DNA of 64,000 nucleotides from Paucisalibacillus globulus (GTDB taxonomy: Bacteria; Bacillota; Bacilli; Bacillales; Amphibacillaceae). Of the stretch, positions 1,660-38,027 are shown in pieces. Numbering within the stretch: the stretch's first letter is position 1; every line of letters begins with the position of its first letter. Location: assembly GCF_900184735.1 (NCBI RefSeq), contig NZ_LT855399.1:186001-250000 (forward strand). Reading direction: 5' to 3'. The notes below the pieces were generated by a model. That model was not told the origin of the DNA. It was given only the letters and a program-made list of their open reading frames with translations, and did no database searches. The position numbers and the translations under genes were made by a program.

Positions 1660-1762
1660 TTCTTATCTTCAAGCATTACACTTCTGGAATTGGCACAGTA
1701 CTCATATAAGTCCGCTGCCGAGGTTTCAAAGGGCCAGTCCCTCCACCTCTCTGGATAAGAAA
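1660..1762 (-). promoter_or_regulatory. SAM-I (S-box) riboswitch aptamer
   Basis: The minus strand reads TTCTTATCCAGAGAGGTGGA, then GGGACTGGCCC, GAAACCTCGGCAGC and a closing GATAAGAA that pairs with the first arm as P1. The AGAG-GGTGGAGGGACTGGCCC-GAAACC core is the conserved S-box pattern. Aptamer, antiterminator and terminator are all intact, and a good promoter lies 24 bases upstream. It controls the cyclase and MetE-like genes. In Bacillales this class senses S-adenosylmethionine and switches off methionine genes when SAM is plentiful. Confidence 0.96.
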
Positions 1763-11827: not shown

Positions 11828-11968
11828 ATGGCAGAAAAAAGCGATAACTGGAGCAAGAGACGTCCCATTTCAAGTGTTAACCCACAAGGGCTTACAGAGG
11901 AAACGGCAGATCACCGTCCAAAGTCTCAGTTAGAAGATCGTGCAAAGAAAAGAAATACTAAAGTTTAA
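11828..11968 (+). CDS. 46-aa hydrophilic protein upstream of csgA
   Basis: A short reading frame with a good GGAGGT seven bases before its ATG. The product is 46 residues, without hydrophobic segments, and rich in Lys, Arg, Asp and Ser: it begins MAEKSDNWSKRRPISS and ends DRAKKRNTKV. I do not recognise a family. It ends five bases before the csgA-like frame opens, so the two are probably co-transcribed and perhaps translationally coupled. That context suggests expression in the developing spore. No promoter was confirmed. Confidence 0.6.
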   Translation: MAEKSDNWSKRRPISSVNPQGLTEETADHRPKSQLEDRAKKRNTKV

Positions 11969-11973
11969 AGCGG

Positions 11974-12231
11974 GTGAAGACAATCGACCATACATTACTA
12001 TACTTACGTGAATCATTATCCAATTACGAGGGTAATGAGTTGAGTCAGTCTATTCATCAAAAGCTACAAAATAAGAACTATCAGAGTGAAAGAGAATTTG
12101 TTGAGGATTTAGATGATAGAGAGATGCAGTATTTAGACAAAATACTAGCACGTGAAATTAGTTATGCTGAAAACGTTCAAGATGATATGCGAGTCCAACA
12201 ATTACGAGAGGTCTATGAAATCATCTTTTAG
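11974..12231 (+). CDS. csgA: CsgA-like sigma-G-dependent small spore protein
   Basis: 85 residues if read from GTG at 11974. LLYLRESLSN, EFVEDLDDREM and AENVQDDMRVQQLREVYEI match my recollection of B. subtilis CsgA, an 82-residue sporulation-specific protein. The start is odd: the GTG lies inside the likely ribosome site (GCGGGTGA). The known homologue starts where this frame has ATC (11983), eight bases after GCGGG. A rare ATC start or coupling to the upstream gene are both possible. Expression late in the forespore is expected from the family; the role is unknown. Confidence 0.7.
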   Translation: MKTIDHTLLYLRESLSNYEGNELSQSIHQKLQNKNYQSEREFVEDLDDREMQYLDKILAREISYAENVQDDMRVQQLREVYEIIF

Positions 12232-12278
12232 AACACTAGGTTTAATAGCCTATTTTTGTCAATTGGATAACATTGACA

Positions 12279-12307
12279 TTGATATTTTACCTTCGAAATA
12301 GTAATAT
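12279..12307 (+). promoter_or_regulatory. sigma-A-type promoter of the structured RNA
   Basis: TTGATA (12279-12284), 17 bases, TAATAT (12302-12307). Predicted start near 12314. No coding frame begins between it and the terminator at 12514. Confidence 0.6.
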
Positions 12308-12313
12308 AAGGAT

Positions 12314-12548
12314 ACAAGCTACGATGTACGTGTTTTACTAAGTTTTAACCTCTAATGCGATAATAGGGAGTTTTAAATTGAAGCTCTAATGCCGAGCCGC
12401 CATGGATTAGCGGAAGGCAGGAAGGTTTCTGCGAACACCCACTTAGTGAAGTGGTGGTTTAAAACTTTTTATGACAAATACGGCATATGTGGCTGATAAA
12501 AATGAACTTGAGCGACCAGTTTCCTAATGGAGACTGGTCATTTTCTTA
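12314..12548 (+). ncRNA. unassigned structured RNA, about 235 nt
   Basis: Promoter at 12279 and terminator at 12514-12547 bound a stretch with no credible reading frame. Visible pairings: AGCTAC 12318-12323 with GTGGCT 12489-12494; AGTTTTAACC 12341-12350 or, alternatively, AGTTTTAAA 12369-12377 with GGTTTAAAACT 12456-12466. Three compact hairpins lie inside: 12397-12413 (CCGC/GCGG), 12417-12432 (GCAGGA/TTCTGC) and 12439-12454 (CCACTT/AAGTGG). ATGCCG 12389-12394 can also pair with CGGCAT 12481-12486, crossing the main stem. AGTTTTAA and CTCTAATGC each occur twice, so two folds compete. I do not recognise it as 6S, SRP, RNase P, tmRNA or a known riboswitch. It may be a free small RNA; a leader of the VOC gene 150 bases downstream is less likely. 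Confidence 0.6.
12514..12547 (+). terminator. intrinsic terminator of the structured RNA
   Basis: GACCAGTTTCC, loop TAAT, GGAGACTGGTC (one mismatch), then ATTTTCTT. No gene ends just before it, so it ends a noncoding transcript. Confidence 0.85.
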
Positions 12549-12698
12549 TTCTCCAGGCACCATACCATGGTTATCCAACAATTATTTTCTTTTCAATTCA
12601 AAAAGCTGATAAGCAAAATCATTCATATGGTATTTGTTTTAAGTATTATAAATTATCTGTATGTAATACTATAATAGAAGCAAGAGGGGGGACTGGAG

Positions 12699-13067
12699 AT
12701 GAAATTTCGATATGAACAATTGGACCATATACAGTTGGCTGCTCCAAGAGGTGGAGAAGACCAAGCGCGTGCATTTTATGAGAGACTACTCGGATTTCAA
12801 GAAGTAGAGAAACCGGAGAACTTAAAAAAGCGTGGGGGAGTTTGGTTCTCAGATGGTGTAATCCATATACATATTGGTATTGAAGAACCATTCCAGCCCG
12901 CAAAAAAGGCACATCCAGCATTTAGGGTTAAGAATATTGAGGAAATGAAAAAGTATTTGAAAAGTAAAGAAGTAGCATATCAAGTCGATCATGATTTGCC
13001 TGGTGCAAACCGTTTTTACTTGCATGACCCGTTTGGCAATCGTTTAGAGTTTTTAGAGTGGCAATAG
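12699..13067 (+). CDS. VOC family (glyoxalase/dioxygenase superfamily) protein
   Basis: 122 residues, one VOC module made of two beta-alpha-beta-beta-beta units. LDHIQLAAPRGGEDQARAFY opens the first; HDPFGNRLEFLEW closes the second and is highly typical. Metal ligand candidates are the His in LDHIQL, the His residues in IHIHIG and the Glu in LEFLEW. Members isomerise, cleave or bind small molecules, including glyoxalase I and resistance proteins; the substrate is not predictable. AGAGGGGGGACTGG precedes the ATG, and a TATAAT is present at 12669. It has its own terminator. Confidence 0.88.
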   Translation: MKFRYEQLDHIQLAAPRGGEDQARAFYERLLGFQEVEKPENLKKRGGVWFSDGVIHIHIGIEEPFQPAKKAHPAFRVKNIEEMKKYLKSKEVAYQVDHDLPGANRFYLHDPFGNRLEFLEWQ

Positions 13068-37953: not shown

Positions 37954-38027
37954 GCGGGTGTAGTTTAATGGTAAAACTCCAGCCTTCCAAGCTGATGTCG
38001 TGGGTTCGATTCCCATCACCCGCTCCA
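37954..38027 (+). tRNA. tRNA-Gly (anticodon TCC)
   Basis: GCGGGTG pairs with CACCCGC as the acceptor stem; D arm GTTTAATGGTAAAAC; anticodon loop CTTCCAA with anticodon TCC; T arm TGGGTTCGATTCCCA; discriminator T and an encoded CCA (38025-38027). No variable-loop oddities. It reads GGA and GGG glycine codons. A strong promoter precedes it. Confidence 0.98.

Follow-up and report, generated by a model that had tools for sequence, protein, structure and literature searches.

6S RNAs are small RNAs that bind to RNA polymerase; their central bubble imitates an open promoter. The polymerase uses this bubble as the template for a short product RNA, whose synthesis unwinds helix P2. In Bacillus subtilis both 6S-1 and 6S-2 bind the RNA polymerase holoenzyme that carries the primary sigma factor (PMC11077062), and two 6S copies have also been reported elsewhere, Oceanobacillus iheyensis being among the organisms named in the relevant part of PMC8414754. 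The naming of the two genes is not uniform. The section of PMC11077062 that describes them equates bsrA with 6S-1 and locates it between aspS and yrvM, and the corresponding section of PMC7726162 assigns the pair of 6S genes in the B. subtilis group to recQ/azoreductase (ssrSA) and to aspS (ssrSB), so that the two papers attach opposite labels to the aspS and recQ/azoreductase genes of this group. Throughout this work 6S-1 means bsrA at the aspS locus, after PMC11077062.

For B. subtilis 6S-1, the pertinent section of PMC8876501 holds that the freed 3′ strand of P2 probably pairs with the distal 5′ side of the bubble to form a "central bubble collapse helix"; the same helix is given there as inferred for Aquifex 6S RNA, and 6S-2 is described as less structured in the bubble. 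In a limited literature search the term was met only in that paper, which is no proof of its absence elsewhere.

The locus analysed here lies in a 64,000-nucleotide stretch of the Paucisalibacillus globulus genome (contig NZ_LT855399.1, positions 186,001 to 250,000), referred to below as the window. A scan of the whole window with Rfam 15 matched 12313-12499 (+) to RF00013 (6S/SsrS RNA) with 75.1 bits (gathering score 46.4), the alignment covering model positions 1-187 of 187 (E 5.5e-13). A shorter, permissive scan of 12200-12700 recovered the same match at E 4.3e-15; up to E 1 it listed nothing from any other Rfam family. The first-pass annotation had stated that 6S does not match and had proposed a new small RNA, adding that a strong hit to a known Rfam family would make it ordinary; the Rfam search that it called for returned one such hit, end to end, and therefore the finding is ordinary by that measure and the statement about 6S was wrong. 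The RNA gene is a further example of a known family and not a novel RNA family, which removes a false candidate for one and places the earlier observation of two competing folds inside known 6S biology. The features of the locus are as follows.

12279-12307 (+): sigma-A-type promoter of the 6S-2 gene, TTGATA-17-TAATAT (9/12 matches; place kept in relatives)
12313-12499 (+): 6S RNA, 6S-2/bsrB-type paralogue (full-length RF00013 match; tree placement)
12317-12322 (+): closing stem (helix 1), 5′ strand AGCTAC, pairing with 12489-12494 (fold and alignment)
12340-12350 (+): helix P2, 5′ strand AAGTTTTAACC, pairing with 12456-12467
12340-12353 (+): predicted template of a 14-nt product RNA, 5′-AGAGGUUAAAACUU
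12354-12368 (+): central bubble, 5′ side, with GGG at its end (Rfam alignment)
12369-12377 (+): AGTTTTAAA, second pairing option for the P2 3′ strand, resembling a collapse helix (blocked folds and alignment)
12439-12454 (+): possible hairpin in the 3′ side of the central bubble, CCACTT-AGTG-AAGTGG (96.7% of cells pair)
12456-12467 (+): helix P2, 3′ strand GGTTTAAAACTT, common to both folds (folds and alignment)
12489-12494 (+): closing stem (helix 1), 3′ strand GTGGCT (fold and alignment)
12514-12539 (+): intrinsic terminator hairpin followed by ATTTTCTTAT (11 pairs; 29/30 relatives)

We are almost certain that the RNA at 12313-12499 is 6S-2 RNA (bsrB type), the second 6S paralogue of its genome. 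A search of that genome with RF00013 and an E cut-off of 10 gave two 6S matches, the other copy lying at C4:284714-284892 with 93.9 bits, compared with 75.1 for the window copy, and adjoining aspS (aspartate--tRNA ligase in NCBIfam). Among the genomes searched from the family, every one of the 80 had an above-cut-off 6S match and 48 had two, in a survey whose filters drop some of the weaker matches. In a tree built from 62 sequences, 31 of the window type were separated from 31 high-scoring sequences of the 6S-1 type by a branch with 100/100 support, a value to be read with a bootstrap not fully settled and with one side picked by likeness to the window (30 of the 35 window-similar matches, those with loci, together with L108) and the other by score (the 30 best-scoring of 128 family-survey matches, together with L031). 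The aspS-linked copy falls on the high-scoring side, and the window copy groups with a Bacillus halotolerans 6S RNA of 77.3 bits, whose flanking genes are named RecQ and FMN-dependent NADH-azoreductase by NCBIfam. From its position in the tree and the aspS linkage of the other copy, the window copy is therefore assigned to 6S-2 (bsrB).

The template regions divide along the same line. AGTTTTAACCTYT is present in 31/31 6S-2-type sequences, in L108 by construction since that sequence was found with a pattern containing the template motif, and GACCGAAC, a stretch of the product RNA made on B. subtilis 6S-1, is present in the template region of 30/31 6S-1-type sequences, L056 being the one that lacks it. 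The window RNA thus resembles Bacillus 6S-2 (bsrB) in its full-length family match, its AGTTTTAACCTYT motif and the side of the tree that it shares with the B. halotolerans copy, but its neighbours differ, with sspL-like and csgA-like genes upstream and a glyoxalase-family gene downstream. With Bacillus 6S-1 (bsrA) it has in common RF00013, the rod fold, the position of the product-RNA template and the principle of a collapse helix as set out in the pertinent section of PMC8876501, whereas 6S-1 has GACCGAAC in the template region, adjacency to aspS in this genome and a place on the other side of the tree.

The sequence from 12313 to 12499 folds better than its dinucleotide shuffles (z -3.05, 1/200 as good) and has the architecture of 6S RNA, with two imperfect helical arms around a central bubble. 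When the window fold was laid on 30 aligned relatives, 92.0% of cells paired and 17/61 pairs changed on both sides, the covariation lying in the arms; 0/500 shuffles reached either value. Shifting the partner by 1-3 columns lowered pairing to 40-49%, a sliding control in which the tested fold is favoured by its derivation from the window's own sequence. The closing stem AGCTAC/GTGGCT is found at 12317 and 12489 as first described, nine of the 11 P2 pairs are identical in 30/30 homologues and the other two in 29/30, and the GGG that bounds the bubble pairs with CCC in 30/30. The possible hairpin at 12439-12454 shows no covariation and is absent from the minimum-energy fold of the window. A pseudoknot proposed between ATGCCG at 12389 and CGGCAT at 12481 was rejected: the letters are present, but the outermost pair fails in 18/30 relatives and the innermost in 8/30, no covariation is seen between the two segments, and the standard fold uses CGGCAT as the 3′ strand of its closing arm.

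A promoter and a terminator had also been claimed for this gene, and both motifs are in place. TTGATA at 12279 and TAATAT at 12302 are separated by 17 nt; an overlapping TTGACA-18-AATAGT at 12273 scores higher (10/12 vs 9/12), and promoter-like matches in 12150-12750 are not above chance (3 vs 2.7 +/- 1.7). It is the place of the promoter that is kept in relatives, where the script's top choice in 25/30 loci was a TTG-17-TAnnnT pair whose end falls 7-9 nt ahead of the closing stem; such a pair was seen by eye in the upstream DNA of the remaining five, the window among them. The terminator is above shuffles (1 found vs 0.2 +/- 0.5), and a downstream hairpin with a T-rich tail occurs in 29/30 relatives under loose script criteria applied without a shuffle control. 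No reading frame of at least 50 aa starts inside 12279-12499, in keeping with the earlier remark that none was credible; a 62-aa frame starts at 12527, within the terminator. Promoter, terminator and conserved fold together bear out the description of the locus as a structured RNA gene.

Upstream of the gene are a fatty acyl-CoA synthetase, an SspL-like small gene and a Pfam CsgA-family gene; downstream are a glyoxalase-family gene and an alpha/beta hydrolase. The small gene (11828-11965 (+), 46 aa), directly before the CsgA-family gene, scores 51.5 bits as spore protein SspL against an NCBIfam cut-off of 51.85. Elsewhere the window carries a SAM riboswitch (RF00162) at 1660-1761 (-), 86.9 bits, and a tRNA gene (RF00005) at 37954-38024 (+), 70.5 bits. 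The proximity of csgA had led to the suggestion of a link with sporulation, which the wider comparison does not support. By tblastn at E 1e-5, a CsgA match lies near the window-type 6S in 19/30 loci of the first homologue set (with some 1.5 kb of flanking DNA, less where a contig stops) and in 11/119 loci among the matches listed in a pattern search, and none was found in the 8 kb B. halotolerans 6S locus. This neighbourhood therefore looks like a gene order inherited in one lineage, and as far as the compared loci go it does not count as evidence of a role in sporulation. In the results given in the relevant part of PMC7726162, loss of bsrB (6S-2) left sporulation of B. subtilis unaffected and sporulation of B. 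thuringiensis responded to ssrSA and not to ssrSB; with opposite labels in the two papers, ssrSA and ssrSB therefore cannot be matched to the window type. A sporulation role for the window 6S RNA is unsupported, though conceivable.

Two other identities for the RNA have to be set against these data. A new riboswitch-like or sporulation-linked regulatory RNA outside the 6S family would accommodate the alternative pairings and the sspL-like and csgA-like neighbours, but it is contradicted by a 6S match that runs from end to end and has no rival family in Rfam up to E 1, the same RNA also stands at loci without a visible csgA or sspL match, and the gene has a promoter and a terminator of its own; the full-length RF00013 match refutes this candidate, and we give it next to no chance. 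The RNA might instead be the orthologue of 6S-1 (bsrA), given that RF00013 takes in both paralogues and that the gene labels in the cited parts of PMC7726162 and PMC11077062 conflict. In this genome, however, the aspS neighbour belongs to the other copy and the window copy lies across a 100/100 branch, which makes a 6S-1 assignment very improbable.

The mutually exclusive pairings noticed at the outset were confirmed: AGTTTTAAC at 12341 and AGTTTTAAA at 12369 share the single partner GGTTTAAAACT at 12456, and the two folds of the window are P2 and an alternative helix with the same 3′ strand, which is a likeness to the collapse helix of B. subtilis 6S-1. Among the alternative pairs, seven of nine are identical in 30/30 relatives, one is identical in 29/30 and one fails in 22/30. 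The alternative helix shows no covariation in the 30 aligned relatives, and the near-invariance of both P2 and the alternative pairs means that covariation therefore offers no evidence here. In the free minimum-energy fold the alternative helix replaces P2 in 7/30 homologues, and P2 is absent in 8/30. Blocking 14 bases of the 5′ strand in silico (12341-12354 or the equivalent, one base off the predicted template 12340-12353) gave a minimum-energy fold with at least five pairs of the alternative helix in 26/30 homologues and with none in 4/30. A looser test under the same block, which requires one or more bases of the 9-nt segment to be paired to the 3′ strand of P2 with a probability of at least 0.5, was passed by 27/31 natural sequences and missed by 4/31; when the segment was shuffled, 9.7% of 620 trials passed, with the shuffled segment passing in 75% and 60% of trials in L008 and L023. 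Of the proposal that the element switches between folds, the alternative fold stands in silico, in those 26/30 blocked folds, but is not accompanied by covariation in the alternative helix.

These data, read against the family, suggest how such a switch might work. The RNA of about 187 nt folds into a rod whose central bubble, as in other 6S RNAs, would imitate an open promoter; 6S-2 RNA would thereby bind sigma-A RNA polymerase and keep it off promoters. The polymerase would then copy 5′-AGAGGUUAAAACUU, reading from the bubble's 5′ side on into the P2 5′ strand. In B. subtilis, 6S-2 likewise gives a product RNA that begins with A. The start site on the template 12340-12353 is a prediction; the predicted product has GG at positions 4/5, as do experimentally known product RNAs in the relevant part of PMC8414754. 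The P2 3′ strand GGTTTAAAACTT, once freed, could re-pair with the second AGTTTTA at 12369, as it does in most of the blocked folds, and by analogy with B. subtilis 6S-1 this re-pairing may help polymerase release. A refolding step with the second AGTTTTA as the partner is somewhat favoured. The duplex energies calculated for the window are -7.2 kcal/mol for P2, -5.3 for the alternative helix and -17.1 for the 14-nt product RNA on its template, an order that, as modelled, is what such a switch needs.

The published collapse helix of 6S-1 uses the distal 5′ bubble, whereas the segment used in the window sits just 3′ of the bubble-bounding GGG, and the modelled alternative helix accordingly resembles a cousin of the published one, short of a proven instance. 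Because covariation is absent, the conservation of the alternative helix may come from another role. In a 6S-2 gene the second AGTTTTA could be conserved for a polymerase contact or for the base of the apical arm, with the alternative pairing incidental; the lack of covariation would be expected on that reading, and the GUUU of the segment does also pair at the base of the apical arm (helix 4) in 30/30. Against it, natural sequences form the pairing in 27/31 cases compared with 9.7% of trials with a shuffled segment, and a collapse helix is inferred for both B. subtilis 6S-1 and Aquifex 6S in the cited section of PMC8876501. Incidental pairing is a serious possibility that we nonetheless hold to fall short of an even chance. 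A further reading goes beyond refolding as such: the near-invariant duplicate of the P2 5′ strand (AGTTTTA) just past the bubble may equip 6S-2 RNAs of the Bacillaceae and relatives with their own 7-9 bp collapse helix, dedicated to this step and placed unlike that of 6S-1, so that the paralogues would release polymerase by differently wired switches. This we put forward tentatively, with the second AGTTTTA, which hardly varies among 6S-2 RNAs, as a candidate part of such a release switch.

Among the matches listed in the pattern search, three loci carry two 6S-2-type matches each, separated by 249-342 bp, in Bacillus sp. M6-12 (L090, 1781-2063), Bacillus salacetis (L101, 2397-2772) and Mesobacillus maritimus (L132, 2163-2506), which are possible tandem 6S-2 copies. 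A further 6S-2-type pattern match, at 5277-5310 of L128, comes from a record whose title names Pseudomonas sp. ISL-84, in a listing that otherwise names Bacillus-like organisms; this record may be mislabelled or contaminated.
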